64,000 nt of DNA from a virus, in IMG/VR virus record IMGVR_UViG_3300012964_000002, positions 25,427-89,426 of that record. One strand, given 5' to 3'. Below are positions 10,378 to 30,454 of the stretch, one piece after another; within the stretch, counting starts at the first letter, position 1; every line of letters starts with the position of its first letter. A model generated the notes under the pieces. That model was not told the origin of the DNA, ran no database searches, and saw only the letters and a program-made list of their open reading frames with translations. Position numbers and translations under genes: made by a program.

Positions 10378-11261
10378 CGCTCCCGCGCTACCCGGTGTAC
10401 GTGATCTCGAAGGGGCGGCATGACTGCTGCCTGACCGCCCGCGCGTTCGTGAAGGATGGGGTGCCCTTCCGCCTGGTGGTGGAGCCGCAGGAGCGGGAGC
10501 TGTACGCGCGGGAGTTCGGGGGCGGCCCGCTGCTGGTGACGCCCTTCTCGAACCTCGGCCTGGGCTCGATCCCCGTCCGCAACTTTGTCTGGGAGCACGC
10601 GAAGGCTTCCGGCGCGGAGCGGCACTGGATCTTCGACGACAACATCTCCGGCATCTGGCGCCGCTGGAAGGCGCGGAAGATCCGGTGCGAGGCCGGCGTC
10701 GCGCTCGCCGCCTCCGAAGACTTCGTCGACCGCTACGAGAACGTCGCGATCGCGGGCCTCAACTACTACATGTTCTCGGTGAACAAGACGAAGCAGCCGC
10801 CCTTCTACCTGAACGTCCACGTCTACTCGGCGCTGCTGATCCTGAACGACCTGCCGTTCCGCTGGCGCGGCCGCTACAACGAGGACACCGACCTCTGCCT
10901 CCAGGTGCTCTCCGCCGGCTGGTGCACGGTCCTCTTCAACGCCTTCCTCGCGTGGAAGATGACGACCATGACGATGAAGGGCGGGAACGCGGCCGAGCTC
11001 TACAAGGGCGACGGGCGCCTCAAGATGGCGCGGTCGCTCGAGCGGGCGTGGCCGGGCGTCGTCACGACGCGGCGCCGCTTCCGCCGCCCGCAGCACGTCG
11101 TGAAGGGAGCGTGGCGCGGGTTCGACACGCCGCTCAAGCTCAGGCCGGGCGTGGACCTTTCCGCGCTTCCGAAGGTGGACGAGCGGGGGATGGAGATCGT
11201 CCGCGTGAAGGAGATCCGGAGCGCGGAGCTCAGGCAGATGGTCGAGGAGCGGGAGAGGTGA
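10374..11261 (+). CDS. TET-associated-type DNA glycosyltransferase (TAGT), copy 2
   Basis: 295 residues, GTGA overlap with copy 1. It starts TLPRYPVYVISKGR and has the same blocks: DGVPFRLVVEPQE, IPVRNFVWEHA, RHWIFDDNISG (D88-D89-N90), FRWRGRYNEDTDLCLQVL and MTTMTMKGG. The C-terminal 50 residues (PGVDLSALPKVDERG onward) have no counterpart in copy 1. Two copies may use different sugars or build a disaccharide. Substrate is unknown. Confidence 0.78.
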   Translation: MTLPRYPVYVISKGRHDCCLTARAFVKDGVPFRLVVEPQERELYAREFGGGPLLVTPFSNLGLGSIPVRNFVWEHAKASGAERHWIFDDNISGIWRRWKARKIRCEAGVALAASEDFVDRYENVAIAGLNYYMFSVNKTKQPPFYLNVHVYSALLILNDLPFRWRGRYNEDTDLCLQVLSAGWCTVLFNAFLAWKMTTMTMKGGNAAELYKGDGRLKMARSLERAWPGVVTTRRRFRRPQHVVKGAWRGFDTPLKLRPGVDLSALPKVDERGMEIVRVKEIRSAELRQMVEERER

Positions 11262-11494
11262 GCTGGATTTCGCTGAGCGACGCGGCCGACCGCCTGGGGC
11301 TGCTCCCCGACGAGCTTTCCAAGATGATGCTCGTCACGCACCGGAACGGCACGTCCTTGGTGATGCATCCTCCGCGCAAGTGCTTCAGCGGCAAGATCCG
11401 GGTGACGCACGGGCCGCGCGTGTGGGAACCAGACTTGGAGCCGTGGGCCGCGGAAAGGGCGGCGGGGCTGATCCCGTGGGGAACAATCTCGTGA
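11258..11494 (+). CDS. MSW-family small protein (founder-like copy)
   Basis: 78 residues, GTGA-coupled to the second glycosyltransferase. N-terminus MSWISLSDAADRLGLLPDEL resembles the first helices of excisionase/MerR-type HTH domains; the C-terminus RVWEPDLEPWAAERAAGL carries the second conserved block. The same two blocks recur in a dozen genes at 13.5-17.5 kb, 26.2 kb and 30.2 kb. Likely a DNA-binding or adaptor module; function unknown. Confidence 0.65.
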   Translation: MSWISLSDAADRLGLLPDELSKMMLVTHRNGTSLVMHPPRKCFSGKIRVTHGPRVWEPDLEPWAAERAAGLIPWGTIS

Positions 11495-11994
11495 GCGGGC
11501 TCCGTCCTCTTCGTCCTGTGCTGGTCGGGCAGGCGCCCGGGCCGGGCGGCGCCCCGCTCGGCCCGCTGCGGGGCGGGCGCGTCGGGCGCCGCCTCGCGGA
11601 CGCGGCGGGGCTTCCGGAGGAGCGGCTCGCGGAGGTCTTCGAGCTGTGGAACCTCCTCGGCGCCTGGCCGGGCCGCGCCGGCGAGAAGGGGGACCGCTTC
11701 CCGCTCCCGGCCGCCCGCGCGGCCGCGGCGCGCCTGCTGCCTCTCCTTGACGGGCACCACGTCGTCCTGCTGGGGTGGAACGTCGAGCGTGCGTTCGGGC
11801 TGGGAATCGAGGCGCCGCTCCGCTGGCTGCAGCACGAGTGGGCGGAGGGCGAGATGCTGGTCGCCGTTCTGCCCCACCCGTCGGGCGTGAACCTCTGGTG
11901 GAACCGGGCGGAGAACGTCGCGGCGGCGCGCGTGTTCATGCGCGGGCTCGTCGAGCACGCCGCCGACCTGCGCGAGGGCGCGCCCCGTGCTTGA
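11491..11994 (+). CDS. Uracil-DNA-glycosylase superfamily protein
   Basis: 167 residues, GTGA-coupled. Motif 1 VLVGQAPG (residues 11-17) and motif 2 LPHPSGVNLWWN with H129 match the two active-site motifs of the UDG fold (GQDPY-like and HPS). The middle holds ELWNLLGAWPG and HHVVLLGWNV. The position between glycosyltransferases and a methyltransferase suggests a role in making or policing modified bases. The exact base specificity cannot be told, and the canonical catalytic Asp of family 1 enzymes is absent from motif 1. Confidence 0.75.
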   Translation: MSGLRPLRPVLVGQAPGPGGAPLGPLRGGRVGRRLADAAGLPEERLAEVFELWNLLGAWPGRAGEKGDRFPLPAARAAAARLLPLLDGHHVVLLGWNVERAFGLGIEAPLRWLQHEWAEGEMLVAVLPHPSGVNLWWNRAENVAAARVFMRGLVEHAADLREGAPRA

Positions 11995-12775
11995 CGTCCT
12001 GCTCGACGCGGGGAAGGGGCAGGGAGCCGTCGTTGTCCACGGCGACGGGATGGAGCTGCTCCGCGCGCGCCCCGACCGATCCGCCGGCCTCGTCCTGACC
12101 GACCCTCCCTACGACCCGCGGACGCACGAGGGGGCGCGCACGAACCGGGAGGGGGCGGGCGACAAGTCGCCCATCCTGTTCGCGCCGTTCTCCGAGGAGC
12201 AGGTGCGCGAGCTGGCGCGCGAGGCGTGCCGCGTCACCCGCGCCTGGGTGGTGATGACGCTGGAGTACAGGATGGCCGTCCACTTGGAGGACGACCCGCC
12301 GCCGGGCGTGCGGTTCGTGCGCCTGGGGATCTGGGACAAGCTCCGCACCGGCGCGCCCCAGAAGTCGGGTGACCGCCCCGGGATGGGGTACGAGGCGGTC
12401 GCGATCCTCCACCGCGACGACGTCGGTCGGATGCGCTGGAACGGGCACGGGCGTGACGCGGTCTTCCGCCACGCCGTCGTGCGCGGCGGGCACCCCACGG
12501 AGAAGCCGGTCGGCCTGGGCGTCGAGCTCGTGCGGCTGTTCTCCGACCCGGGCGACGAGGTGATCGATCCCTTCTGCGGCTCCGGCGCGTTCTTGGAGGC
12601 CGCGAAGGTGGAGGGACGTCGCGCGGTCGGCGTCGAGCTCGACCTGGCGTGGGCCAGGAGGGCGGCGCGCCGGCTCTCCCAGGCGGTCATCGCCGCGCCC
12701 GCGGCGCCCCGCGCTGAGCAGCCCGATCTCCTCGTGGTGCCTCGGACGAGGCGCCCCCGTGCCGCCCTTCCTTGA
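11987..12775 (+). CDS. DNA N4/N6-amino-methyltransferase, beta-class order
   Basis: 262 residues; GTG at 11987 overlaps the UDG-like gene. Motif IV DPPY is at 39-42 and motif I FCGSG at 196-200, so the catalytic motif precedes the AdoMet motif; HPTEKP (169-174) is typical of this class. It transfers a methyl group to an exocyclic amine of adenine or cytosine, so it is not the C5 methyltransferase that feeds a TET pathway. It closes the modification island and is followed by a strong promoter. Confidence 0.88.
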   Translation: MLDVLLDAGKGQGAVVVHGDGMELLRARPDRSAGLVLTDPPYDPRTHEGARTNREGAGDKSPILFAPFSEEQVRELAREACRVTRAWVVMTLEYRMAVHLEDDPPPGVRFVRLGIWDKLRTGAPQKSGDRPGMGYEAVAILHRDDVGRMRWNGHGRDAVFRHAVVRGGHPTEKPVGLGVELVRLFSDPGDEVIDPFCGSGAFLEAAKVEGRRAVGVELDLAWARRAARRLSQAVIAAPAAPRAEQPDLLVVPRTRRPRAALP

Positions 12776-12799: not shown

Positions 12800-12805
12800 G
12801 GTGAT

Positions 12806-13006: not shown

Positions 13007-13033
13007 CGGCACGTTCCGGGCAAGTCTCAGTCC

Positions 13034-13516
13034 ATGAGCCTGCGTCGGAAGCACGGGCACTCTTACGGTTCTGACGGCAAGCCGTCCCGCACGTACAAGA
13101 GCTGGCAGGCCATGATCGAGCGGTGCACGCGGCCGGCGCACCACGCGTGGTCTAACTACGGGGGGCGCGGAATCGAGGTCTGCGAGCGATGGCGCTCCTT
13201 CGAGGCGTTCCTCGCCGACATGGGCGAACGTCCCGTCGGGAAGACGCTGGACCGCTACCCCAACCGTGACGGAAACTACGAGCCCGGCAACTGCCGGTGG
13301 GCGACGTGGGCTGAGCAGCGTAGCAACTCCAGGCAGAACCACATGCTGACGTTCCGGGGTGAGGAGTGCACGCTTACGGAGTGGTCTCGGCGCGTCGACA
13401 TTGGCAAGTCCACAATACGGCAGCGCTTGCTGAAGGGGTGGAGCGTGGAGGCCGCGCTGACGACGGCACCGTTGCCGCACGAGCACTGCGGTAGCATCAG
13501 AAAGCGGACGTCGTGA
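13034..13516 (+). CDS. HNH-type homing endonuclease-like protein
   Basis: 160 residues from ATG 13034. The pattern SWQAMIERC, NYGGRGIEVCERW, TLDRYPNRDGNYEPGNCRWAT with a Gly-Asn-Tyr-Glu and NCRW core is typical of the phage HNH family with a C-terminal HTH-like segment (FRGEECTLTEWSRR...TIRQRLLKGWSVEAALT). It would nick or cut DNA and promote its own spread. Its sequence looks somewhat less GC-rich than its neighbours, and it separates the first MSW gene and modification island from the rest of the MSW array, consistent with an insertion. Confidence 0.85.
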   Translation: MSLRRKHGHSYGSDGKPSRTYKSWQAMIERCTRPAHHAWSNYGGRGIEVCERWRSFEAFLADMGERPVGKTLDRYPNRDGNYEPGNCRWATWAEQRSNSRQNHMLTFRGEECTLTEWSRRVDIGKSTIRQRLLKGWSVEAALTTAPLPHEHCGSIRKRTS

Positions 13517-13842
13517 GGCAGCGCGGGGCCGTCGTCGGGCGTCTCCCGCGCGGGTGGGTATCGTTGGACGCAGCGGCCGCGCTCCTCTGCATGGAGCCGT
13601 GGCAGTTCTATAAGTGCCTGAGCGACCGCGAGATTTCATTTTACCCGCGGGGGGTTTCGCACTACCGCTGGGGCGCCGCCAACCTGCTCAACCGCCTGCC
13701 CGCGCTCGAGCTCGTAGGCTGGCGCGGCAGCAGGCACCTGTACGACTGGAACACGCGCGAGCACCGCGCGACGCACGTGCGGAGGCGCGCCGTCGTGGAG
13801 TGGATCGCGCTGCGCGCAGCGCGGCTGCTCTCAGCCGGCTGA
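13513..13842 (+). CDS. MSW-family-related small protein
   Basis: 109 residues, GTGA-coupled to the HNH gene. After a basic start it has GWVSLDAAAALLCMEPWQFYKCLSD (aligned with the SWIxLxEAA block) and ends RRAVVEWIALRAARLLSAG (second block). The middle is His/Arg/Trp-rich. This copy keeps the clearest excisionase-like spacing: helix pair, basic strand region, then a W-containing helix. Confidence 0.55.
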   Translation: MRQRGAVVGRLPRGWVSLDAAAALLCMEPWQFYKCLSDREISFYPRGVSHYRWGAANLLNRLPALELVGWRGSRHLYDWNTREHRATHVRRRAVVEWIALRAARLLSAG

Positions 13843-13844
13843 GA

Positions 13845-14096
13845 ATGCGCGGCGCGGAGGGCAAGACCTCGGGCGTGACCGACGACGGATGGATCCCGCT
13901 CGAGGAGGCCGCGGAGCGCGCCGGGTTTGCCGACAAGAACGACCTCCTGCGTTCGCTCCCGTCCGTCCTCTTCGACGACGCCAGCATGGACCAGGGGCCG
14001 ACGGAGATCCTCGCAAGCTACCTGGAAAACTGGATGGCGCGCCGCGTCGTCCTGATGCTAGAAGTCGACGCTCCGGCGGTGAGGTCCCGTGGCTGA
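13845..14096 (+). CDS. MSW-family-related small protein
   Basis: 83 residues from ATG 13845; a GTG at 13875 (MTDDGWIPLEEAA...) would fit the family N-terminus better. It has WIPLEEAAERAGFADKNDLL and ends in LENWMARRVVLML, a shortened second block. Shortest and most diverged of the array; may be degenerate. Confidence 0.5.
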   Translation: MRGAEGKTSGVTDDGWIPLEEAAERAGFADKNDLLRSLPSVLFDDASMDQGPTEILASYLENWMARRVVLMLEVDAPAVRSRG

Positions 14097-14505
14097 CGAG
14101 TGGATCACGCTGGAGGAGGCGGCCGACGTCCTCCGGACCACGGTCGGGGACCTGGCAACGGAGCTGTCTCGCTCTGGATCCCTGCTGTCGAGTGGGCAGC
14201 TTCCGCCGTCTGTCGAGCTCACGCCGGCGTGGCCGAACGTGCGTGTGTGGCACATCTGGACGCCCAAAGGGATCGGTGCGCAGGGCAACCGGTTCGACGA
14301 GGTCAGCCTGCGGTCGCGCTCGCTCGGCGCGTTCAAGGCCACGCACGTCCACTCCGGGGACCTCGAGGTGTGGGCCGCCGACCGCGCCGCGCGCCTCGTG
14401 AGCACGTGCAAGGTGTGCTTCGGAAAGGGGTTCGTTCCGTCGAAGCCGCCGATGCGAGCGGTGGTTCCGTGCCCGATGTGCGGCGGATCGGCCAGGCGAC
14501 CGTGA
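14089..14505 (+). CDS. MSW-family small protein with zinc ribbon
   Basis: 138 residues, GTG start, 8-base overlap. EWITLEEAADVLRTTVGDL begins the protein, HVHSGDLEVWAADRAARLVS is the second block, and a zinc ribbon follows (CKVC...CPMCGG). It combines the family core with a DnaJ-like Cys pair module. Confidence 0.62.
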   Translation: MADEWITLEEAADVLRTTVGDLATELSRSGSLLSSGQLPPSVELTPAWPNVRVWHIWTPKGIGAQGNRFDEVSLRSRSLGAFKATHVHSGDLEVWAADRAARLVSTCKVCFGKGFVPSKPPMRAVVPCPMCGGSARRP

Positions 14506-14855
14506 GCGAGTGGCTCACCGTGAAGGCGGCCGCGCGGGAGGCCGGGTACATCGACTGGGTAGACCTCGTGTTCGACCTGGAGAGCTCGCTCGCGCCGCCG
14601 GGCATGATCTTCGACGTCTCGCTGGTGAAGACGGAGCTGCGCCGCGGGGTGGAGCAGTTCACCGGCACGTACCGGTGGAGCCCTTATGGGCCCAAGACGT
14701 TCATGTTCTCGCACCTGCACGCGGAGGACTTCAGCGCGTGGGTGGCGCGTCGCGCGGAGCGCATGCTGTCGAGCCGGTGCCGCCGATGCGGGGGAACTGG
14801 CCAGGTTGTCAACCAGGGGATCCGGGAGAGGTGCGAGTGCCGCGGCCTTCGATGA
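14502..14855 (+). CDS. MSW-family small protein with Cys cluster
   Basis: 117 residues, GTGA-coupled. EWLTVKAAAREAGYIDWVDL then HLHAEDFSAWVARRAERMLSS and a C-terminal CRRCGGTGQ...CECRG zinc-binding motif like that of the previous gene. A central variable region separates the blocks. Confidence 0.62.
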   Translation: MSEWLTVKAAAREAGYIDWVDLVFDLESSLAPPGMIFDVSLVKTELRRGVEQFTGTYRWSPYGPKTFMFSHLHAEDFSAWVARRAERMLSSRCRRCGGTGQVVNQGIRERCECRGLR

Positions 14856-15274
14856 TCTTCTCGTTCGACGAGGGAATGTGGCTGCGCTGCGTGTCGCCGA
14901 AGACGCCGTGGCACCGCCACGACGAGGGGATGTGGCTGTCGGAAGCGCGCGCGGCCGAGCTGCTCGACCTCGGCGACTGCGGGTGCCGAGGTGAGTGGAG
15001 GTGCGGGCCGTGGCCGAGGCACGCGCGGATGGCGGAGACGAGTCCCTTCAACGGGCGAGAGCTGGCCTTCCCGAAGGGGGTTGGCGGACCTCCGGAGCTG
15101 CGGTTCGCCTGGCAGCGCCGCGACGCTCTCGGACGCTGGAAGCCGCCCGGAGACGACTCCTACTTTTGGCGTCCGGACGTCGAGCGGTTCGTCGCGTGGT
15201 ACGTGGAGCACCTGGCGGAGCAGTCGGCGCGGTTGCTGTCGAACGGCGGATCGGAAGAGGAGCTGGCCGGGTGA
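14852..15274 (+). CDS. MSW-family-related protein, variant N-terminus
   Basis: 140 residues from the ATGA-coupled start at 14852; a GTG at 14837 with GGAGAGG upstream is an alternative. The N-terminus is duplicated in miniature (DEGMWLRC, then HDEGMWLSEARAAELLDLG) and the C-terminus has WRPDVERFVAWYVEHLAEQSARLLS, the conserved second block. Central Cys residues (CGCRGEWRC) may bind metal. Confidence 0.58.
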   Translation: MIFSFDEGMWLRCVSPKTPWHRHDEGMWLSEARAAELLDLGDCGCRGEWRCGPWPRHARMAETSPFNGRELAFPKGVGGPPELRFAWQRRDALGRWKPPGDDSYFWRPDVERFVAWYVEHLAEQSARLLSNGGSEEELAG

Positions 15275-15537
15275 GCGCGAGCCACGAGCACGCCGGGACG
15301 TTGATGCTTCGCGTCGTTCTCGCCACCGCCAGAGGTTCCACGGAGCGTTGGCCGTCCGACACCTTCGTGGAGGAGATGACGGTGTGTGCGGAGTGCGGCG
15401 CGCTGTTCGTGCCGCCGGACCAGATCGAGGAGGTCGCCGCGCGCGCGTCGGAGCGCATCCTGCGCGACCGTCAGCAGCAGGTTCCCCGGACGGAGCACGA
15501 ATCGACCGCGTCCGTCGGCCCTTGGAAGCGGCGATGA
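15271..15537 (+). CDS. Small Cys-pair protein inside the MSW array
   Basis: 88 residues, GTGA-coupled. It lacks the SWIxLxEAA block but has VCAECGALFVPP and a helix DQIEEVAARASERIL that resembles the second block. It may be a truncated family member or an unrelated partner. Confidence 0.5.
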   Translation: MSASHEHAGTLMLRVVLATARGSTERWPSDTFVEEMTVCAECGALFVPPDQIEEVAARASERILRDRQQQVPRTEHESTASVGPWKRR

Positions 15538-15854
15538 CCGGCTGGCTGACCGTCAGGAAGGCGGCGGAGCGCGCGGGGCTTTCCCCAGAGGCGATGGCCG
15601 GCCTGCTGCTGGGGTACGCACCACTGCTTGAGCTCAGGGGGCCGGAGGGGAAGCCGCTGTTCTCCGACGTCGACCGCTTCCTCGTGCGCGAGCGGGACGT
15701 GGATCGCGTGCTCGCCGACGGCGCCGCGCGAATGATGTCGTCGTGCAGGGTGTGCAGCGACACGGGGTCCGTCACGGTGGAGGACATGAACGGGCCGCCC
15801 TACTCGGTGCTGTGCCCGAGCTGCCGTCCTGACAGGGGGTCGGCGTGGCGGTGA
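15534..15854 (+). CDS. MSW-family small protein with zinc ribbon
   Basis: 106 residues, ATGA-coupled. GWLTVRKAAERAGLSPEAMAGLLL is a near-ideal excisionase-type HTH start; RDVDRVLADGAARMMSS is the second block; CRVC...CPSC closes the protein. This copy gives the best support for an HTH reading of the family. Confidence 0.62.
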   Translation: MTGWLTVRKAAERAGLSPEAMAGLLLGYAPLLELRGPEGKPLFSDVDRFLVRERDVDRVLADGAARMMSSCRVCSDTGSVTVEDMNGPPYSVLCPSCRPDRGSAWR

Positions 15855-16345
15855 ACGTCGATCTCGAGCTCTGGGTGCCACTCGACGAGGCGAGCGAGCT
15901 TCTCGCCTTGGACCTGGCGCGGGAGCTGGGGGACTCGCTGAACGGTTGGGTGTGGTTCGCGCGGCACTTCGTTCTCGGGACGACGCCGCCGGACATGCGG
16001 AGGCCGGACGGGATGACGCTTCTGCTGGCCAACGTGCCTGGCGTGTCCGCCTGGCCGGTTCGCGTCAGAAAGGGGAACGTGCGACCCACGCCTTCGTGGG
16101 GCGGCGACGTGCTGGTCTGCATGGTCAGCCACGTGTGGAGAGGCGACGTCGACGTGTTCCTCGCGGAGCGCGCCGCCGCGCTGCTCGGGACGGGGGGCGT
16201 CGCGGTGAGGAGGGGGCGAACGCACTACTTCTGCCCGGTGTGCCAGACGAACGTGATGCCGGTCCTGATTGGAATAACCAGGGTGAACCTGCCGCCCGCG
16301 TGCTTTCGGTGCGGCGCGCGGTTCATCGGGGCGGAGCGCGGGTGA
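15851..16345 (+). CDS. MSW-family protein, long copy with zinc ribbon
   Basis: 164 residues from the GTGA-coupled GTG at 15851 (an in-frame GTG at 15845 is possible). ELWVPLDEASELLALDLARELG starts it, then a central region of about 60 residues, HVWRGDVDVFLAERAAALLG, and CPVC...CFRCG at the end. The insertion between blocks is the longest but one in the family. Confidence 0.6.
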   Translation: MNVDLELWVPLDEASELLALDLARELGDSLNGWVWFARHFVLGTTPPDMRRPDGMTLLLANVPGVSAWPVRVRKGNVRPTPSWGGDVLVCMVSHVWRGDVDVFLAERAAALLGTGGVAVRRGRTHYFCPVCQTNVMPVLIGITRVNLPPACFRCGARFIGAERG

Positions 16346-16689
16346 GCTGGGTGCCGATCGAGGAGGCGGCCGCCGCGCGCGGCCTGTCCGGCGGAGACCT
16401 CGCCGACGTGCTTCAGCATCGGGTGGTGGTCAGGAACAGAAGGAACGCCAGGCTTCGCGGCGAGACGTGGGCGCGCGGGATCGTCGCGGTGAAGGAGGGC
16501 AGGCTTGGCGTGCCGTGGTGGGCCGTCAAGACCGGCGACGACGTGGCCTTCGTGTCGCACGTCTGGGGCCCGGACGTGGACGGCGCCCTCGCCGCCGCGG
16601 CGGCCGAGCACCTCGAGGTGGACGCGCATCGCGCGCGCCTGGCCAAGGAGCTGAAGATGCTCCGCGAGAGCAAGACGAGGCGGCGGTGA
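16342..16689 (+). CDS. MSW-family small protein
   Basis: 115 residues, GTGA-coupled. MSWVPIEEAAAARGLSGGDLADVL, basic middle, HVWGPDVDGALAAAAAEHLE, then a basic tail (KELKMLRESKTRRR). No Cys ribbon. Confidence 0.62.
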   Translation: MSWVPIEEAAAARGLSGGDLADVLQHRVVVRNRRNARLRGETWARGIVAVKEGRLGVPWWAVKTGDDVAFVSHVWGPDVDGALAAAAAEHLEVDAHRARLAKELKMLRESKTRRR

Positions 16690-17066
16690 GCTGGATCTCC
16701 TGGGACGAGGCGGCCGCGCGCGCCGGCGTGCCCGTCCTCGAGTTCGCGCGCTCCGTCGCGCGCACTTCCTGGACGGTCTCGTGGTCGATCTTTTCTCCGC
16801 AGGACCGGGCGTTCAAGCAGGCGACGTCGTACAGCTGCTGGACGCAGGACACGGTGCGCGCCGTCGTCGTGCGGGTGGTGTCGTTCGACGGCGACACCTC
16901 GCTCGAGGCCGTCGCCAGAAGGGAGCGCGACTCCGGGGTGTGGCGCGGGGCGGACGGGTGGGCCGGGTCCCTGCTCGACTCGACGCACCTGTGGGACGAG
17001 GACGTGAACAGGCTGGCGGCCATGCTCGCCGCCGAGCTCGTCGAGGACGGGGCGAGGGCGCGATGA
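16686..17066 (+). CDS. MSW-family small protein
   Basis: 126 residues, GTGA-coupled. MSWISWDEAAARAGVPVLEFARSV, a Ser/Trp-rich middle, and HLWDEDVNRLAAMLAAELVEDG at the end. No zinc motif. The first nine codons are almost the same at DNA level as in the neighbouring copies, which supports tandem duplication. Confidence 0.62.
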   Translation: MSWISWDEAAARAGVPVLEFARSVARTSWTVSWSIFSPQDRAFKQATSYSCWTQDTVRAVVVRVVSFDGDTSLEAVARRERDSGVWRGADGWAGSLLDSTHLWDEDVNRLAAMLAAELVEDGARAR

Positions 17067-17522
17067 GCTGGGTGACCTTGGAAGAGGCGGCGGAGCGCCT
17101 CGGGCTGTCGAAGGAGGACTTCGCGCTGGAGCTGGCCGAGTCCGGCGCCGCCGAGCGCTGGTGGGCCAAGAGCGATCCGAAGAATCCGAATCTGTTCCGC
17201 GGGGCGCTGCGCGTGACGACCCGGCAGGGGCCGACCGTTTCCCTGAGGAAGGGGATGCACAGGGGCACGCGCCTCGGGGCGATCGCCGCCTCGCACGTCT
17301 GGGAGCCGGACCTCGAGCCCTGGGCCGCCTGGTGGGCCGCCGAGCAGCTCCGGGACCGCTCGCTCGACTACGTGGCCGACTTCGCCGACGGCGACCGGCT
17401 CGACAGGGTGGCGCGCGACTGGGGGGTTCCTGCGCCACCCCGGGGAGGACGACGTCGCCTTCCGCGGCCGCCTCGCCGCCGCCTCGGCCCTCTTCGCCGG
17501 AAAGGGGCCCGACGTCCCCTAG
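17063..17522 (+). CDS. MSW-family protein with apparent frameshift and tail-protein-like C-terminus
   Basis: ATGA-coupled start. MSWVTLEEAAERLGLSKEDFAL and HVWEPDLEPWAAWWAAEQL give both family blocks. Sequence stays protein-like to DRLDRVARDWG, ending at a G6 run (17421-17426). In the unshifted frame it then turns Arg/Pro-rich and runs into the terminase gene; with one G fewer it continues FLRHPGEDDVAFRGRLAAAS... to a TAG at 17520-17522, giving about 152 residues. LDRVARDWG...RHPGEDDxxFRxRL is a motif common in phage tail proteins. Either a sequence error, a real mutation or slippage explains it. Confidence 0.6.
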
Positions 17523-17540
17523 CCCGGGCCGGCCGCCCCC

Positions 17541-18758: not shown

Positions 18759-19117
18759 GCCCCTGCGTGAGGGCGATCACCGTCAGGTTCGAGGTCGTGC
18801 AACAGAACGGTCTCGAGATCGAGTTCGACGAGACCTTCGCGACGGACTCGGTGGAGAGGGCGCTCGAGCTAGCGGAAGAGTACCGCCACGTTCCGCCGCT
18901 TCCGCTGGCCATGGCCGCCCGGGTCGTGGCTGACGACCTGTACGAGAACGGGAGGACGTACCCCAGGAAGAACTGGTGCGTCACGCACCAGCGACCGATG
19001 CCAGCTCACGACGTGACGTCGGCGTGCCGCACCCAGAAGCTGACCGAGGCGATGTTCGCCTCCGCCTCGGCGTCCATGCTGGAGGAGGACGCGCGTCGCC
19101 GCGCGCGCCGCTCGTGA
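18755..19117 (+). CDS. Hypothetical protein upstream of terL
   Basis: 120 residues, GTGA overlap. An N-terminal beta-type region (AITVRFEVVQQNGLEIEFDE), a central helix, and a C-terminus with Cys/His (NWCVTHQRP, SACRTQK) and basic residues. Function unknown. Confidence 0.6.
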   Translation: MSPCVRAITVRFEVVQQNGLEIEFDETFATDSVERALELAEEYRHVPPLPLAMAARVVADDLYENGRTYPRKNWCVTHQRPMPAHDVTSACRTQKLTEAMFASASASMLEEDARRRARRS

Positions 19118-20613
19118 ACCCCTCTGGCTTCGCCGCCACGGCCGTTCGCCGGAAGCTGCGCCACGCGCGGCAGCTGCGCGCCCGCGTCGCGCGGGACGAC
19201 GTCAACGCCTTCATGCAGTTCGTGATGCGGGACGAGAAGACGAACGTCCCGATCCGCCAGGCACCCGTTCACAAGGCGTGGCAGTGGGAGGTGTCGCACC
19301 ACAACCGGGTGCTGATCTGGTCCCACCCCGAGAGCGGGAAGACGCAGCAGCTGTCGATCGGCCGCGTGCTCTGGGAGCTGGGGAGGAACACCGCGCTGCG
19401 CGTCGCCGTCATCTCCAGGACGGACAACCTCGCCACGAAGATCGTGACGACCGTCGGGAACCTCGTCCTCAAGAGCGAGGAGCTCAGGGCCGTCTTCCCC
19501 CACCTCCGCAAGAGCACGACCGCGCGCGACTCGTGGACCACGCACGCCATCACCGTCGAGCGCAACAACCCCGGCATGAAGGAGCCCAGCGTCCAGGCGT
19601 TCGGCGCGAGCTCGCGGTCCCTCATCGGCAACCGCCTCGACCTCCTCGTCATCGACGACATCCTCGACGACCAGAACACCAACTCCGCAAAGCAGATGGA
19701 GGACATGTGGGTCTGGTACAACTCCCTGGTCGAGGGGCGTCTCGACACGAACGGGCGCGTCATCGTCGTGGGGAACGCCTGGCACCCGCAGGACTTCCTC
19801 CACCGCCTCGCGCGCCAGCCGGGGTGGAAGGCGCTCCGCTACCCGGTGGTGGACGACGAGACGGGAGAGCCGCGCTGGCCGGAGCGCTGGCCCACGAAGC
19901 GCATCCTCGAGACGAAGACCAAGCTCGACTCCGCGCGCGCCGGCGAGTTCGCCCGCACGATGCTCTGCCTCGCGCGCGACGACGCGCAGAGCCGCTTCCA
20001 CCAAAAGAGCATCGACGCCTGCAAGGCGCTCGGCGCCGGCATGCGTCTCTGGGGTGGCCTGCGAGAGGTTCCGGCGGGTCACCGCGTCTACACCGGGGTC
20101 GACCTGGCCGTGAAGCGCGACGCCAGCGCGGACTTCACCTGCCTGTTCACCATCATCGTGCACCCGGACGGCTCGCGACAGGTGCTCAACATCCAGACCG
20201 GGCGCTGGCGCAAGAGCGAGATCGTCAACCGCATCATCCACGTCCACGCCCGCTTCAACGGCATCGTCATGGTCGAGGACAACGCCGCCCAAGACTACAT
20301 CTTGCAGGACGTCGTCGACCGCTCCTCCGTGCCGGTCAAGCCGTTCACGACGGGGCGCAACAAGATGAACATCGAGTACGGCGTCGAGTCCCTCTCCGCC
20401 GAGATGGACAACGGAAAGTGGATAATCCCGTCCGAGGGGGGCAAGTCTCATCCCGAGGTGGAAGCGTGGATCCTCGAGATGCTCTACTACGACCCGCGGA
20501 AGCACACGGGGGACCGCCTGATGGCCTCGTGGATCGCGCGGGAGGCGGCGCGGACCGGGGGCGGAGAGGGCGTGCGCGCGTGGGCCGGGTCTCTGGACAC
20601 GATGGCTCGCTGA
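19114..20613 (+). CDS. terL: Terminase large subunit
   Basis: 499 residues from GTG 19114. ATPase: Walker A SHPESGKT (70-77), Walker B LLVIDDILDD with D181/D182, and a VVGNAWHPQDF coupling segment. Nuclease: GVDLAV with D330, VEDNAAQ with E388/D389, and GDRLMASW with D467, the usual three acidic positions of the RNase H-like domain. It drives DNA into the prohead and cuts it. Length is typical. Confidence 0.93.
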   Translation: MNPSGFAATAVRRKLRHARQLRARVARDDVNAFMQFVMRDEKTNVPIRQAPVHKAWQWEVSHHNRVLIWSHPESGKTQQLSIGRVLWELGRNTALRVAVISRTDNLATKIVTTVGNLVLKSEELRAVFPHLRKSTTARDSWTTHAITVERNNPGMKEPSVQAFGASSRSLIGNRLDLLVIDDILDDQNTNSAKQMEDMWVWYNSLVEGRLDTNGRVIVVGNAWHPQDFLHRLARQPGWKALRYPVVDDETGEPRWPERWPTKRILETKTKLDSARAGEFARTMLCLARDDAQSRFHQKSIDACKALGAGMRLWGGLREVPAGHRVYTGVDLAVKRDASADFTCLFTIIVHPDGSRQVLNIQTGRWRKSEIVNRIIHVHARFNGIVMVEDNAAQDYILQDVVDRSSVPVKPFTTGRNKMNIEYGVESLSAEMDNGKWIIPSEGGKSHPEVEAWILEMLYYDPRKHTGDRLMASWIAREAARTGGGEGVRAWAGSLDTMAR

Positions 20614-20852
20614 CGTCGGAGGAGCTCGACGCGCGGCTGGCCGTCTTCGAGCTGCGCGAGGAAGCCGTCCTCCATCACGCCTCTCGAGCAGGGTGGAGGT
20701 GCGAGTGGTGCGGCGTCGGGTTCGACCACCTGATCCGCGTCGGCAGCTCGCGCTTCGTGGACGAGGCGCGGACGGCGCGGGAGGTCGCAAAGGAGAATCA
20801 CGGCAGCGTTCCCTGCTGGGAGCTCGTCGGAAGGGACGGCCCCCGTGGCTGA
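20580..20852 (+). CDS. CxWC...CWE family protein, copy 1
   Basis: 90 residues if it starts at GTG 20580 (GGAGAGGG upstream); a CTG at 20610 would give the CTGA overlap typical of the genome but is a rare start. GWRCEWCGVGFDHL and, near the end, SVPCWELVGRD align with the next two genes. A three-Cys zinc-like site is possible. Function unknown. Confidence 0.55.
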   Translation: MGRVSGHDGSLTSEELDARLAVFELREEAVLHHASRAGWRCEWCGVGFDHLIRVGSSRFVDEARTAREVAKENHGSVPCWELVGRDGPRG

Positions 20853-20870
20853 CGCGCCCGAGGAGGCGGC

Positions 20871-21137
20871 TTGAGGATCGTCACGCGGAAGGAGGAGCGG
20901 GACCGCGCGTTTCGCGCCGCCGCGCTTCTCTCGCGCGTCGTCGTGGTGCACCAGCAGCCGGACCCGCCCACGCTCGAGGGGTGGTTCCGCTGTGGCTGGT
21001 GCGAGCGCATCGTGCCGATGAAGGAGATGCGGTCGCACGGCGGAACCGCGGTGTGGTCCGATCAGCCGAAGGAGAGGGTCGACGACCTCGGGCCCGGCGT
21101 CGTCGGCTGCTGGGAGATGTACCCGTCGGAGGCGTGA
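20871..21137 (+). CDS. CxWC...GCWE family protein, copy 2
   Basis: 88 residues, TTG start with GAGGAGGCGGC directly upstream. A helical N-terminus (RDRAFRAAALLSRVVVVHQQ) precedes FRCGWCERIVPMKEMRSHGG, then VWSDQPKE and GCWEMYPSEA. It shares the MxEMRSHGG block with copy 3. Confidence 0.62.
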   Translation: MRIVTRKEERDRAFRAAALLSRVVVVHQQPDPPTLEGWFRCGWCERIVPMKEMRSHGGTAVWSDQPKERVDDLGPGVVGCWEMYPSEA

Positions 21138-21421
21138 TGGGGTGTCACGTCGAGGTCGAGGAGCTGCGTCTGGCGCGGGAGGCCGCGGCGCTTCTGGTCG
21201 ACAGGGATGTCGTTCACCAGCGGCCGCCCGGCGCGGCCGAGCTGCTGGCCGACTCACCCGACTCCTACTTCCAGTGTGACTGGTGCGGCCGCCTGGTCTT
21301 CATGCGCGAGATGCGGAGTCACGGCGGCAAAGGCGTGTGGTCGGAGATCACGCGCGAACGCCGGGAGACGGTGCTCGTCAATATGCGCGAGATCGGCTGC
21401 TGGGAGCTCGCGCCGCCGTGA
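21137..21421 (+). CDS. CxWC...GCWE family protein, copy 3
   Basis: 94 residues; ATG overlaps the previous stop by one base. LRLAREAAALLVDRDVVHQ, then FQCDWCGRLVFMREMRSHGG, VWSEITRERRE, and a terminal IGCWELAPP. The strict conservation of CxWC, MRSHGG, VWS and GCWE between copies 2 and 3 suggests a compact metal-binding fold. Confidence 0.62.
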   Translation: MGCHVEVEELRLAREAAALLVDRDVVHQRPPGAAELLADSPDSYFQCDWCGRLVFMREMRSHGGKGVWSEITRERRETVLVNMREIGCWELAPP

Positions 21422-21741
21422 GGATCACTCGCGACCATCCCGACTTCGAGCACATCTCCGTGCTCCTGCGCGGAGAGGAGCTGGGCTTCGAGGATGTCGC
21501 GGCCCTGCTCGAGGCGGACACCGGCGGCGGGTACGTGGTCGTCGAGGTGGAGCTCAAGCCACGCAACCCGCTCCTCGGTCCCATGCCGCGGATGCGCGGC
21601 GGCGACAGGCGCGTGCTGCGCGGCGAGGTTCGTCTCATCGACCGGCGCACGGGCGGTCCGTACGACCCGCTGCTCCAGGCCGCGGAGGAGGCGGCGAAGG
21701 AGGAGGCCCTGTCGTTCAACGGGAACAGGGGCTGGAAGTGA
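21418..21741 (+). CDS. Hypothetical protein
   Basis: 107 residues, GTGA-coupled. It has RITRDHPDFEHISVLLRGEELG, beta strands (GGYVVVEVELKPR), an MRGGDRRVLRGEVRLIDRRTG segment and an acidic helical end. No family recognised. Confidence 0.6.
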   Translation: MRITRDHPDFEHISVLLRGEELGFEDVAALLEADTGGGYVVVEVELKPRNPLLGPMPRMRGGDRRVLRGEVRLIDRRTGGPYDPLLQAAEEAAKEEALSFNGNRGWK

Positions 21742-22034
21742 TCGCGCTCGCCGTCATCGTGGTCTGCGTCGCCGCCGCCGCCGCGACGCGCTGGGCGTAC
21801 CGCCTGGGCAAGCGGATCGGGGAGTGGGACAGCGACGCCGCGGCGTCCGGCCACATCCTGTCGGAGCGCGCCGCGATGCTGGCCGAGCTCGAGACGGTCG
21901 TCGGGATCGCCGAGTGGCTGTCCGGCTCCGAAGACTTCGGTCCGGGGGGCAAGGCGGAGGAGGGTTGGGAGACGGCGCGACAGAAGCTGGACGAGACGCG
22001 CGCGCTGATCGTGTTCTGGAGGCATCATGGCTGA
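21738..22034 (+). CDS. Small membrane-anchored protein
   Basis: 98 residues, GTGA-coupled. One N-terminal transmembrane helix (IALAVIVVCVAAAAATRWAY), cytoplasmic-side basic residues and a soluble helical domain of about 70 residues. Could be a membrane anchor or accessory lysis or exclusion protein; no evidence to choose. Confidence 0.6.
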   Translation: MIALAVIVVCVAAAAATRWAYRLGKRIGEWDSDAAASGHILSERAAMLAELETVVGIAEWLSGSEDFGPGGKAEEGWETARQKLDETRALIVFWRHHG

Positions 22035-22221
22035 CGAGGTGTGCATGGCCTGGGTAACCCCGATCCAAGAGCGCCGAGCCCGCGCCTGCGGGCGGCCGGC
22101 GACGCACATCGTGGGGTTCCAGCGGGTGCCGCGCTGCTCGAGGCACGCCATGATCGCTCGGAAGCGCGGCGAGCTCGTCGCGAAGATCCGGGACGGAAGG
22201 AAGGAGTCCGTCGGTGTCTGA
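22027..22221 (+). CDS. Small Cys/His protein
   Basis: 64 residues, ATG overlapping the previous gene by 8 bases. EVCMAWVTP, RARACGRPATHIVG and VPRCSRHAMIA give a Cys/His pattern seen in short phage proteins that may bind zinc; basic end. Function unknown. Confidence 0.58.
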   Translation: MADEVCMAWVTPIQERRARACGRPATHIVGFQRVPRCSRHAMIARKRGELVAKIRDGRKESVGV

Positions 22222-22573
22222 CTGGCGCGTCGTCTTCGACGGGGTTCACCCCGTTCTGTTCGTCGTCGTCGCGAGCTGGCTGCTGGGCGTGGCGTGCCGG
22301 CACGGCGAGAAGAGGGGCGCCTTCGAGGAGCGGCAGCGGATCTGCTCGGAGGGCGCGGAGGCGGCGGCCGTCGCGTACATGCTCGACGAGCGGCACGCCA
22401 TCCTGAGGGTCGCGGAGGAGATGTCGTCGCTCGCGCAGTCCCAGCTTGTGATGCTACCGTCTGTCCTGTCTAGCACCATCGCCATCGCCGACCTGCCCAG
22501 CATCATCGCCGACCAGCAGGAGCGCGTCTTCGACGCGCAGCTCAAGATTCGCGCGTGGAGGTCCCGTGGCTGA
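22214..22573 (+). CDS. Membrane-anchored hypothetical protein
   Basis: 119 residues, GTG start with 8-base overlap. One N-terminal transmembrane helix (VLFVVVASWLLGVAC) then a helical, partly hydrophobic domain. Similar build to the gene at 21738 but no obvious sequence match. Confidence 0.58.
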   Translation: MSDWRVVFDGVHPVLFVVVASWLLGVACRHGEKRGAFEERQRICSEGAEAAAVAYMLDERHAILRVAEEMSSLAQSQLVMLPSVLSSTIAIADLPSIIADQQERVFDAQLKIRAWRSRG

Positions 22574-22805
22574 CCTCGCCGCCGCGCTCGGCAGGAAGCG
22601 GGCGCCCCCGCGCTCGCGCGCTCCGCGCCCGCCGCGCGTCTTCGACGCCGACGGGAACGAGGTCTTCATCACGATGCTCTGCCCGCGCTGCCGGAAGCTG
22701 CGGCCGCTGTGTCAGTTCGGGCTTCGGCGGATGGCCGGCGGGCAGATCCGCAACTGCCCGTGGTGCAAGACGTGCCGGAGCGGGCCGGCCAGGAGGCAAG
22801 CGTGA
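22566..22805 (+). CDS. Small zinc-ribbon protein
   Basis: 79 residues, GTG start. Pro/Arg-rich start, then LCPRCRKLRPLCQFG and NCPWCKTC, a plausible two-knuckle zinc ribbon. The CPxC...CxxC pattern resembles HNH-like or recruitment ribbons, without catalytic His. Confidence 0.6.
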   Translation: MADLAAALGRKRAPPRSRAPRPPRVFDADGNEVFITMLCPRCRKLRPLCQFGLRRMAGGQIRNCPWCKTCRSGPARRQA

Positions 22806-23044
22806 CCGTCGACTTCTCGCAGGCCGTCCACGCGCGGGACGGAGCCTGGGCGCTCTGCCGCGCCTACAGGCCGTGCATGGGGACCGAGACCCTGACGCTC
22901 CAGAAGCCAAAGCGCGGCCCGCGCACCGTCACCTGCCCGGCCTGCCTGAAGAAGCTGCGGCGGCGCGCGCTCCGCGGCGTGCTCGACGTCTCGTGGCAGG
23001 AGCGGCTCCGGGAGTTCCACTCCGTCACGACGAGGGAACCATGA
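22802..23044 (+). CDS. Small Cys protein
   Basis: 80 residues, GTGA-coupled. Begins TVDFSQAVHARDGAWALCRAY, with RPCMG and TVTCPACLKKLRRR (CxxC). Basic, possibly zinc-binding; function unknown. Confidence 0.58.
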   Translation: MTVDFSQAVHARDGAWALCRAYRPCMGTETLTLQKPKRGPRTVTCPACLKKLRRRALRGVLDVSWQERLREFHSVTTREP

Positions 23045-23322
23045 TGACGCCCGCGCGTGTCTTCGCTCTCTGCGTCGCTGGGATGGTGCTCTGCGTCCTG
23101 CTGGCCGTCGCGCTCGTCCCGCAGCCCGCTCCGGAGCGTCCGCCGCTCCCGGACGTGCTCGAGGACGCCGCCTTTCTCTCCCTGCGCGTGGACCGCCTCG
23201 CGGACGAGCTCGTCCGCTCCCGCCGGATCCTGAACGCGCAGCGGGAGTTCATGCTCGCCAGGACCAAGCGGGAGAGACGGGAGGCCGCGCGGGCGGCCAT
23301 GGTGGCGTGGAGCGAGCCGTGA
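23041..23322 (+). CDS. Membrane-anchored helical protein
   Basis: 93 residues, ATGA-coupled. N-terminal transmembrane helix (VFALCVAGMVLCVLLAVALV), a Pro-rich hinge, and a charged helix to the end (RVDRLADELVRSRR onward). The layout is like an inner-membrane spanin, but the gene is far from the endolysin and no partner lipoprotein is adjacent, so this is not assigned. Confidence 0.58.
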   Translation: MMTPARVFALCVAGMVLCVLLAVALVPQPAPERPPLPDVLEDAAFLSLRVDRLADELVRSRRILNAQREFMLARTKRERREAARAAMVAWSEP

Positions 23323-24478: not shown

Positions 24479-25617
24479 ACGACTACCTCGTGACGTGCGA
24501 GCACAACGCCTTCCCGCACTTGGTGGGCTCGTGTTCCCCCGCGTGCTTGAATCCGCACGGCCCTGTAGCGCCCGCCCCCGCCGCGTCGCAGGTGTCCGCG
24601 TTCGCCGCTCTCGTGGACGCCGTTCGGGAGGAGGGCCGCGAGTTGGGAATGGCGCAAGCTAAGGGGCACGCGCTTCTCTTCAAGGACTCGCGTCCCGCTC
24701 TCCTCGCCGCCCACCGGGCCGTCGAGGCGGAGCGGGACCGGGCGCGCCGGCACGAGCTCGCGTTCAGCCGGATGTACGACAGCATGCAGAAGGAGCGGGA
24801 CGAGGCCCGGGCCGCCATCGCCGCGGCGACGAGGCGGGCGGAGGCCGCCGAGCGGTTCGTGAAGGACGCCGAGCTGGCCTACGTCGGAAGCGAGGTCATG
24901 ACGGACGTGCTCGTCTTCTTCGAGGCCGCGGGCTGCGGCCGACCGGGCACGCCGAACACGCTGTGGTCGATGACGCAGGAGATCATCGCGCGCGAGGCCG
25001 CGTCCCGTGCCGAGGCGGAGGAATTGCGGCGCCGGCTGGGTCCGGTTCCCGAGCGACGCGCGGTCCTGCGGTACGTCTCGTGGGGGGACGCGCAGGACAT
25101 CCACGCGCTGGCGCAGCCGCTCGTGGACCACGTCGAGGCGGGGAAGCTGGCGAAGCGCGTCTGCGACTTCCTGACTCCGGGCGCCGTCCTCGACCTCGTT
25201 GCGCCCGCCGCCCCGGATGACGATGCTCCGGTCTGCGATCCGGAGCCGCGCTGCGGGGAGTGCGGCTCGCCGATGGAGCTGCGGCTCTCCCGCTACGGGC
25301 GGTTCTGGGGCTGCGTCCGCTTCCCGACGTGCCGTGGGACGCACGGCGCGCACCAGAGCACCGGCGCCCCACTTGGCGTTCCGGCGGACAAGGCCACCCG
25401 GGAGGCGCGGGTCATGGCGCACGCCTCGCTCGACGCGCTGTGGAAGAAGGGCCTGATGAGCCGCCGCGCGGCCTACCGCTGGCTGCAGGAGGCGATGGGT
25501 CTCTCCGTGGAGGAGGCGCACATCGGAAAGTTCACCACCGAGCAGTGCAACCGCCTGATCGAGTTGGCGCGCGGGCGTCAGCCGCGGGTCGCGCCGCTCA
25601 AGCCGAAGAAGTCGTGA
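24475..25617 (+). CDS. Coiled-coil protein with topoisomerase-type and DUF3268-like zinc fingers
   Basis: 380 residues, ATGA-coupled, RBS CGGAGGA. N-terminal Cys/His segment, coiled coil at about 80-135, then a zinc finger CGECGSPMELRLSRYGRFWG with a second pair in VRFPTC (about 260-285) as in topoisomerase I C-terminal fingers, and a C-terminal helical domain (AHASLDALWKKGLMSRRAAY, HIGKFTTEQCNRLI) like phage DUF3268 proteins. Probably nucleic-acid binding. The exact role is unknown. Confidence 0.6.
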   Translation: MNDYLVTCEHNAFPHLVGSCSPACLNPHGPVAPAPAASQVSAFAALVDAVREEGRELGMAQAKGHALLFKDSRPALLAAHRAVEAERDRARRHELAFSRMYDSMQKERDEARAAIAAATRRAEAAERFVKDAELAYVGSEVMTDVLVFFEAAGCGRPGTPNTLWSMTQEIIAREAASRAEAEELRRRLGPVPERRAVLRYVSWGDAQDIHALAQPLVDHVEAGKLAKRVCDFLTPGAVLDLVAPAAPDDDAPVCDPEPRCGECGSPMELRLSRYGRFWGCVRFPTCRGTHGAHQSTGAPLGVPADKATREARVMAHASLDALWKKGLMSRRAAYRWLQEAMGLSVEEAHIGKFTTEQCNRLIELARGRQPRVAPLKPKKS

Positions 25618-26180
25618 GCGCGCTTGGCGAGCTCGCTTGGCAGTTCCGCGTCGCGTTCTCTCGGCGGTGGAACTGGGACGAGCTTCCGGAGGGCCTGCCG
25701 CCCGGCTGGCCGGACGGGGACCCGGCGCGTCGAGAGCGGCACGAGGCGCTGTCGGCCGCCGTCATGCTGGCGGGCTTCAGCCCGGGGCCCGTGCTCGAGG
25801 CGATGCGGATGATCGAGCGAGGGCGGTTCGTGCTCGTGGGGACCGCCGCGCTCCGCCTCCGCGGGCACGACGTCGCCGCGAGCGACCTCGACTTCCTCTG
25901 CGAGCACGCGCCGGGAGGGCTCGAGGACGGGACGGGCAGCGGCGGCTCCACGGTGCGGGAGGTCGTGCTTCCGCAGCTTCGCGGATTCGTCTCGCACTCG
26001 CGCGTCAAGGTCGACTTCATCTACGCGGACAGGCCGCGGCGTCCGTTCCTGACGCGGTTCCCGGACGTCATCCTTGGCGTGCCAGTGGCGAGCGAGGAGG
26101 ACGTGATCGGCCTCAAGGCGTGGGCGAACAGGGACAAGGATCGTTGGTTCCTCGCCAGGTGGAGGGCCGGGTGTGCCTGA
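25614..26180 (+). CDS. AbiEii-like nucleotidyltransferase-fold protein
   Basis: 188 residues, GTGA-coupled. RFVLVGTAALRLRGHDVAASDLDFL gives the motif GxAx...SDLDF with D91 and D93; later KVDFIYADRPRR and FPDVILGVPVASEEDVIGLKAW and RDKDRWFL match the AbiEii/MNT toxin-type nucleotidyltransferase plan, including the GLK...KD helix. The usual GG is GT here. Family members transfer nucleotides to tRNA or proteins as toxins; a phage copy could act in superinfection exclusion or counter-defence. No AbiEi-like partner is adjacent. Confidence 0.6.
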   Translation: MSALGELAWQFRVAFSRRWNWDELPEGLPPGWPDGDPARRERHEALSAAVMLAGFSPGPVLEAMRMIERGRFVLVGTAALRLRGHDVAASDLDFLCEHAPGGLEDGTGSGGSTVREVVLPQLRGFVSHSRVKVDFIYADRPRRPFLTRFPDVILGVPVASEEDVIGLKAWANRDKDRWFLARWRAGCA

Positions 26181-26523
26181 CGAGTGGATCTCCAGCGTGG
26201 AGTTCGAGCGGGACCTCCGCTCCGAGCTCCTGCCTCCTCTTCAGGTGGCTCACGGGACTCCGACGCCGGCGAGAGGCCCGAACGTCAAGGGGGAGCCCGT
26301 GATCCGCTTCCGCCTGCGGCCCGGCGCGAAGAAGATGTCGAGCAAGCTGGACTTCGAGTACAACGTCGCGGACTTCGAGCGCTGGAAGGCGTGGCGCGCG
26401 GCGCGGATGCTCCGCGAGGACATCGTGTCGATCACCCTGACGTGCGAGCACGGCGTCGCCTCGTCGCGCCCCTGCGACGAGTGCGTCTACACGTGGCTGC
26501 GCAAGCTGCGACCGACCCCTTGA
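26173..26523 (+). CDS. MSW-family-related protein with Cys motif
   Basis: 116 residues, GTG start. DEWISSVEFERDLRSELL and VADFERWKAWRAARMLRE align with the two blocks of the array at 11-17 kb; CEHGVASSRPCDEC follows as a zinc-like tail. This is a dispersed copy 9 kb from the array. Confidence 0.55.
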   Translation: MPDEWISSVEFERDLRSELLPPLQVAHGTPTPARGPNVKGEPVIRFRLRPGAKKMSSKLDFEYNVADFERWKAWRAARMLREDIVSITLTCEHGVASSRPCDECVYTWLRKLRPTP

Positions 26524-27223: not shown

Positions 27224-27224
27224 C

Positions 27225-27904: not shown

Positions 27905-28095
27905 GCATCCGCTCCCGCAAGCGCAGGCGCTGGCTCCGCACCGAGCGCGGGCGTGCGGAGGCCGCGGTATTTATTCTGCGCCCGCCGGGGACTATTTCCA
28001 CGAGCATGCAAGGCGTCGACTGTTCAGAGTGCGAAGACGGCACGCCGCACCAACATGCTTCACCGTGGACAGGTGAGGTCTGGAAGTCGGTGTGA
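27901..28095 (+). CDS. Small basic/Cys protein
   Basis: 64 residues, GTGA-coupled. SIRSRKRRRWLRTERGRAEA then VDCSECEDGTPHQH. The DNA at 27964-27998 is locally AT-rich, unlike its surroundings. Function unknown. Confidence 0.48.
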   Translation: MSIRSRKRRRWLRTERGRAEAAVFILRPPGTISTSMQGVDCSECEDGTPHQHASPWTGEVWKSV

Positions 28096-28156
28096 AGGTG
28101 AAGTCGTAGGCGTTCACGCGGGCGAGCTGCGGCGGAACGCGGGGCGGCCGACCGGA

Positions 28157-28238
28157 GCCCGCCGGGATCGGTAGCGGGCGGAGACCAGCCGAAGCGGCGG
28201 GAGGTCTCCGGCGGCGCCGGGAGGGTGGGGCCCGGCGC
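28157..28238 (+). other. Three consecutive hairpins upstream of the portal gene
   Basis: Back-to-back stems: 28157-28162/28174-28179 (GCCCGC), 28180-28186/28203-28209 (GGAGACC), and 28214-28221/28231-28238 (GCGCCGGG). They fill much of the 204-nt gene-free gap 28096-28299. Could be a terminator group, an mRNA leader structure or a small structured RNA. Confidence 0.45.
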
Positions 28239-28299
28239 GGGACGCGCTGGCGGCGCGCCCCCGGTTCGTGGCAGAGTGCGGGGCGGAGGACCACCCCGC

Positions 28300-29976: not shown

Positions 29977-30233
29977 CGCGCACCGCGTTTCCCAACAGGG
30001 ACGCGATCCCCACGGTCATCCATCGGCCGCCCTACGGCCAGGGCTGGGGCAGGGAGGCGGAGGTCTACCTCGCGCACCCGACCGTCACGCCGGACGACGT
30101 CGCCCGCCTGCTCCACACCGGCAAGCTCCTCGTCTGGCGGGAGGAGCCCGCCGGCGTGATCTGGGTTCGCGCCTCCGTGTCCTGGGAAGAGGTCGAGGCA
30201 GAGCTCGCGCGCTCTCCGGGGCGCGCGCCGTGA
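29973..30233 (+). CDS. Hypothetical protein after portal
   Basis: 86 residues, GTG start overlapping the portal stop. Middle TPDDVARLLHTGKLLVWREEP and end SVSWEEVEAELA look like a small winged-helix or helix-strand unit. Unknown function; coupled to the next MSW-like gene. Confidence 0.58.
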   Translation: MTRTAFPNRDAIPTVIHRPPYGQGWGREAEVYLAHPTVTPDDVARLLHTGKLLVWREEPAGVIWVRASVSWEEVEAELARSPGRAP

Positions 30234-30454
30234 CGGATCCGACCGCCGGGTGGCTCACGGCGGCGGAGGCCGCGGCCGCGTTCCCCGGGCTGACCCCGGA
30301 GCGGCTCGCCGCCTTCGCCGCGCTCGGGGCGCTCCGGCAGAAGCTGCTGCACCTCGAGCCCGGGCGCCCGACCGTGCCGCTCTACGACCGGGACGAGCTC
30401 GAGGTGCTGGCGGCGGCGGACGCCGCCTCGCTCCTCGCGGGCCCGCGCGCCTGA
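30230..30454 (+). CDS. MSW-family-related small protein, dispersed copy
   Basis: 74 residues, GTGA-coupled. GWLTAAEAAAAFPGLTPERLAAF and VPLYDRDELEVLAAADAASLL match the two family blocks with the compact spacing of an excisionase-like HTH. Compared with the array copies it has only a short insert. Confidence 0.58.
   Translation: MTDPTAGWLTAAEAAAAFPGLTPERLAAFAALGALRQKLLHLEPGRPTVPLYDRDELEVLAAADAASLLAGPRA

Follow-up and report, generated by a model that had tools for sequence, protein, structure and literature searches.

A largely tandem array of small, predicted winged-helix proteins with a variable insert in the DNA-modification hotspot of a tailed phage

The analyzed stretch of 64,000 nucleotides (the window) corresponds to positions 25,427-89,426 of an 89,426-base virus record (G000), and negative window coordinates denote the first 25.4 kb of the record, upstream of the window. 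The gene list, which comes from a codon-model caller applied to a linear and perhaps incomplete record, identifies a tailed phage with sheath-like and baseplate-like genes, TerL at 19114 and a portal gene at 28300. The matches of its TerL in cultured phages have approximately 22-25% identity, and those of its portal protein have 27%. Thirteen small open reading frames in the window had been proposed to form one expanded family, and all of them are present with starts as claimed. The members, designated hereafter by their start positions, and the neighboring DNA-modification genes are arranged as follows.

9631..11261, + strand: two TET-associated glycosyltransferase (TAGT) genes, directly upstream of the first member (Pfam PF20691, E 2.9e-30 and 8.4e-46)
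11258..11494, + strand: core member, 78 aa, with a 4-nt overlap with the upstream TAGT gene
11518..12775, + strand: UDG-superfamily-like ORF and N6/N4 DNA methyltransferase gene, downstream of the first member and ahead of the main array (Pfam UDG E 0.0028, 18.2 bits against a cut-off of 24.3; PF01555 E 1.7e-14)
13513..13842, + strand: member, 109 aa, in which the W is residue 15 (E 2e-7 with the full HMM, 3e-4 to 9e-7 with one core copy left out; 27.3 bits, shuffle maximum 8.7)
13845..14096, + strand: member, 83 aa, with the shortest insert and a degenerate C-block (E 2e-4 to 3e-3; 20.5 bits, shuffle maximum 7.9)
14089..14505, + strand: core member, 138 aa, with a C-terminal CxxC...CxxC zinc-ribbon-like tail (HMM, shuffles)
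14502..14855, + strand: core member, 117 aa, with a Cys-rich tail (HMM, shuffles)
14852..15274, + strand: weak member, 140 aa, with a recognizable C-block
15534..15854, + strand: core member, 106 aa; residues 1-69 modeled as a winged helix, followed by a CxxC...CxxC tail
15851..16345, + strand: core member, 164 aa, with a 59-residue insert, a shortened HTH turn and a Cys tail
16342..16689, + strand: core member, 115 aa (HMM, shuffles)
16686..17066, + strand: member, 126 aa, with the longest insert, 71 residues (E 2e-5 to 2e-8; 31.6 bits, shuffle maximum 10.7)
17063..17434, + strand: core member, about 124 aa of family sequence, after which the ORF is out of frame following a G6 run
26173..26523, + strand: dispersed member, 116 aa, without HTH helix 1 (E 4e-5 to 0.02; 18.2 bits, shuffle maximum 6.6)
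30230..30454, + strand: candidate that resembles HTH_17 by eye and is not supported by HMM or shuffles

Seven core copies (11258, 14089, 14502, 15534, 15851, 16342 and 17063) are linked to each other by pairwise phmmer. Leave-one-out HMMs recovered each of them among 985 ORFs from all six frames of the 89 kb record, with E-values of 1.5e-3 to 7.5e-13, and the full core HMM added 16686, 13513, 26173 and 13845 at E 2e-7 to 3e-4. Every member outscores 2000 shuffles of its own sequence, which indicates that the shared words are not chance. For 14852, the score is 10.5 bits, while its best shuffle reaches 4.8, with an HMM E-value of 0.04-0.3 that improves to 3.4e-4 with a wider profile. The candidate at 30230 is not supported as a member, with an HMM E-value of approximately 4 and a score that was reached by 5 of the 2000 shuffles. 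On these statistics, the about 13 copies of the original prediction reduce to 11 firm members and one weak one.

In 12 of the 13 genes, the start lies upstream of the preceding stop, with an overlap of 4 or 8 nt. In a DNA repeat scan, the stretches coding for the N- and C-blocks emerged as 7-copy and 5-copy degenerate repeats, respectively. The array genes have atypical codon use, with a GC3 of 0.89 versus 0.93 (p 2e-4) and lower codon scores than other short genes (p 9e-4), as expected of accessory genes. At 17400-17530, the frame of 17063 shifts past the C-block at the G6 run (GACTGGGGGGTTCC), and the +1 frame reads on as FLRHPGEDDVAFRGRLAAASALFAGKGPDVP-stop, a continuation resembling a motif of phage tail proteins. 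This frame change is either a sequencing error or a real frameshift. Just before the main array, at 13034-13516, lies a 160-aa protein that by eye is like AP2/HNH-type homing endonucleases, and it has no significant Pfam match.

Most copies consist of two blocks separated by an insert. The N-block, W-[ILV]-x-x-x-E-A-A...D-[LF]-A (typically W-x-x-x-E-A-A...D-L-A), spans the first strand and the HTH, and the C-block, [ST]-H-[VL]-x-x-x-D-[LV]-x-x-x-x-A-x-x-A-A (typically S/T-H-V-W-x-x-D-L-x-x-W-A-A-x-x-A-A), spans the last strand and a long C-terminal helix. The blocks agree with their original description, except that three copies deviate: helix 1 is missing from 26173 and the turn from 15851, and 13845 has neither the Asp nor most of the insert. 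Identity exceeds that of shuffled sequences in the N-block (32% vs 22%) and in the C-block (34% vs 18%), whereas the inserts, which range from 11 to 71 residues, do not rise above the shuffled level (25.8% vs 23.9%). The copies share a common descent, and their variability is confined to the insert, in line with the variable inserts of the original prediction. The optional zinc ribbons have counterparts too: 14089, 14502 and 15534 each continue past the C-block into a zinc-ribbon-like tail, and 15851 and 26173 contain Cys pairs. The tails of 14089 and 15534 are alike at the DNA level too (73% over 60 nt). Elsewhere in the window (20871-21421), there are adjacent paralogous small proteins that are Cys-rich and zinc-binding-like (phmmer E 4.6e-18).

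The AlphaFold2 model of residues 1-69 of 15534 has a strand-helix-helix-wing-strand-helix arrangement, with a pLDDT of 91 and a pTM of 0.78. In the model of 17063, both blocks have pLDDT values above 80, mostly above 90, whereas insert residues 44-71 fall below 50; the C-terminal helix is long (81-108), and there is no effector domain. The AlphaFold2 alignments held paralogues only, and the identification of the insert with the wing rests on these models. In a Foldseek search with the 15534 model, the best PDB matches were Pukovnik Xis (probability 0.95, TMt 0.68-0.70, E 0.2), BldC (0.90) and RdfS (0.85). Their E-values of only 0.2-0.3 can be expected because the domain is so small. Matches among the viral structures of BFVD are mostly HTH, MerR or excise proteins. 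The family profile was aligned by hhalign to the HTH_17 proteins of the same phage lineage with a probability of 64 and an E-value of 6.5e-5, with helices 1 and 2 in register, while the controls (MCP, TerL, portal and reversed) gave 0.4 or less. A winged-helix fold of the Xis type is thus well supported for the family by modeling, and the proposed excisionase/MerR-type HTH is right at the level of the fold; the predictions did not place copies in unrelated folds. By sequence, however, no copy exceeds the Pfam (PF12728) or NCBIfam (TIGR01764) cut-off. The best copy, 17063, reaches 13.0 bits against 27 for PF12728 and 13.1 against 28.8 for TIGR01764, whereas the canonical HTH_17 copy of the same phage scores 38.3 bits on PF12728. 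A PDB sequence search with the family profile gave no match.

We gathered 83 related contigs by MCP, portal and TerL searches. Many of them are short fragments that do not necessarily cover the corresponding region, so that absence of the family from them is weak evidence. Profile searches of these contigs detected a single relative, one 78-residue copy in the 94 kb record G043. Its E-value of 0.0017 for that record is marginal after 83 records, and its score is 22.9 bits against a shuffle maximum of 9.7; a later E-value of 2e-19 arose by construction because the G043 sequence was in the profile. Its membership is supported by position. In G000, G003, G040 and G043, SbcC-like/ParB-like genes are followed by a variable region and then by TerS/TerL, and both the G000 array and the G043 copy fall at one position in this order, past the SbcC-like/ParB-like genes and ahead of TerS. 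No related phage with the full array emerged among the 83 contigs. Peptide patterns from 17063, an alignment of 11258 and 17063, 14089 and the G043 copy returned only G043 from IMG/VR. No relatives were found in cultured phages and plasmids by tblastn, or as prophages in GTDB genomes approached via the major capsid protein.

The variable region is a hotspot that carries different DNA-modification modules in different relatives. In G043, Tet_JBP, ADDT, GNAT-like, DAO and P-loop kinase genes precede the family copy in this region, and Dam follows it; G040 has PTPS/QueD-like and Thy1 genes, and G003 has an MTase. TET-dependent modification in G000 was considered and rejected, as there is no Tet_JBP match in the record despite its two TAGTs. 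The same record encodes a C5-cytosine methylase (PF00145) at window -4835..-3321. The hotspots of G003 and G043 also carry expansions of other, unrelated small proteins. In G003 (reversed coordinates 21969-23183), another expanded family with four copies (MGITISQSTIDEAKALVDE...) is syntenic with the array. In G043 (30793-33129), near the family copy, seven small proteins are encoded in a row; leave-one-out HMMs relate at least four of them, and they end in an A-A-x-R-L-G-like helix. A relationship between this helix (AAxRLG) and the C-terminal helix of the family was rejected (hhalign probability 1.2), and C-block matches in other proteins do not leave the range of shuffled sequences. The G043 TerL has a putative intein-like insertion of approximately 380 residues (CFAPGTRVLTSEGYKPI... 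to VVHNAQ) at record positions 18,894-21,602, which are 34399-37107 in the coordinates used for the small-protein array. Directly upstream of the dispersed member 26173 in G000, with an 8 nt overlap, is an AbiEii-like nucleotidyltransferase ORF (25614-26180; PF08843 E 0.005, 17.2 bits against a cut-off of 22.5), and together the two genes recall a type IV toxin-antitoxin pair.

We interpret the array as a lineage-specific, largely tandem expansion of a degenerate Xis/BldC/MerR (HTH_17)-like winged helix with a diversified wing, carried in the accessory hotspot of an uncultured phage and probably with host- or defence-facing targets, and we assign this reading a probability of approximately 0.5. 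Common descent, the confinement of variability to the insert, the overlapping gene order and the hotspot synteny are shown by the sequences, and the fold is predicted by the models. The conserved blocks would form a constant winged-helix scaffold. Its wing would differ from copy to copy, each having its own insert of 11-71 residues that is usually basic, and a zinc-ribbon-like tail is added in several of them. Some copies may contact DNA with this basic wing. If the wing or the tail is the recognition surface on this constant core, the copies would be small binders that each have a target of their own and are expressed together from a string of overlapping genes. The neighboring DNA-modification genes and the analogous expansions in relatives suggest that these targets face the host or its defences and that the proteins may serve in counter-defence or host takeover rather than in phage integration. 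A more specific version, in which the wing loop of each copy, with the optional zinc ribbon, is directed from a constant frame against its own host or defence target, appears unlikely to us; its logic would be comparable with that of other scaffold-plus-variable-loop systems. PADLOC and PHROG models gave weak, low-scoring matches only, and no copy corresponds to a known defence or anti-defence model (one sub-threshold match). The fold is a DNA-binding one, and an ordinary regulator set would fit as well. Among the regulator set, anti-defence repertoire and decoys that had been offered as possible roles, sequence alone does not discriminate, and the hotspot context leans to an accessory or counter-defence role.

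The main rival, which we consider a real possibility, is that the proteins are true sequence-specific DNA-binding regulators or nucleoid-like proteins of the Xis/Cox/BldC type, each acting at its own site in phage or host transcription and reading DNA with the HTH and the long basic wing. It would account for the Xis/BldC/RdfS fold and for the inserts, which are basic in most copies (net +2 to +8). RdfS, a wHTH protein, oligomerises on DNA with no apparent consensus motif (PMC11963761), and the HTH and zinc-ribbon expansions of jumbo phages have been read as possible transcription factors (PMC7824862). However, the basic residues that normally occur in the recognition helix of this fold, represented in RdfS by Arg32, Lys36 and Arg38 (PMC11963761), are absent from the family. 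The HTH unit is acidic, with a mean net charge of -2.2 versus +0.7 in canonical HTH_17 proteins from this phage lineage (p 0.004, n=12 and 6, with hand-set boundaries and only six canonical comparators). According to the alignment, the HTH seems damaged in 26173, where helix 1 is missing, and in 15851, where the turn is missing. Furthermore, it would be unusual for one presumed transcript to encode a dozen coupled regulators.

A lesser rival treats the copies as accessories of DNA hypermodification, namely small adaptors with a wHTH fold by which the adjacent glycosyltransferases and methylases would be directed or modulated. The first G000 copy indeed lies between the TAGTs and the UDG-like/MTase genes, and the G043 copy lies between the P-loop kinase and Dam inside the Tet_JBP/ADDT/DAO cluster. 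This arrangement is seen in two phages only, however, and modification genes abound throughout the hotspot, which makes proximity to them expected. Since G039 has Tet_JBP and no family match, and it is hard to explain why two or three enzymes should need a dozen adaptors, we consider this explanation improbable. A role as excisionases (recombination directionality factors) is extremely improbable despite Pukovnik Xis being the top structural match, because no tyrosine or serine recombinase (PF00589, PF00239) was detected in the linear, perhaps incomplete 89 kb record; the approximately 12 copies and the sub-threshold scores on TIGR01764 and HTH_17 also argue against it. The preferred reading, an expansion with a diversified wing, presents a clear case of a familiar DNA-binding fold multiplied and diversified at the wing inside a single phage genome. 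If the targets of the copies differ, the array would supply ready small candidates for host-takeover or counter-defence factors, and the same hotspot in related phages would be a place to search for more.

Among known systems, the HTH_17/excisionase proteins (PF12728, TIGR01764; Pukovnik Xis and RdfS) share with the family the strand-helix-turn-helix-wing-strand-helix topology and the N-terminal W/Y-L-T-x-x-E-A-A-x-x-x-G motif. The family differs from them in its long variable wing insert, extended A-A-rich C-terminal helix, acidic HTH, many coupled copies, scores below the curated cut-offs and absence of a detected integrase. The BldC/MerR winged-helix domains also have this fold, whereas the family has a hypervariable wing and neither a basic recognition helix nor a MerR effector domain. 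The single-copy HTH_17 gene of G000 (window -13557..-13315) and its relatives belong to the same lineage and have a related fold, and the family HMM gives this gene 11.1 bits, more than any of 2000 shuffles. Unlike the family, it has a canonical short wing and a basic HTH, exceeds the Pfam cut-off and adjoins a ParB-like gene. The array had been regarded as matching no described system. This holds insofar as no description of an Xis/MerR-like expansion with a diversified wing was found in open-licence papers, but similar expansions are known: Bacillus phage G has approximately 35 zinc ribbons, and Myb-type HTH expansions occur in its subgroup (PMC7824862). Those expansions likewise place one small domain in many copies in one phage, whereas the present family has another fold, tandem overlapping genes and diversity concentrated in the wing, and it sits in a DNA-modification hotspot of an 89 kb phage.
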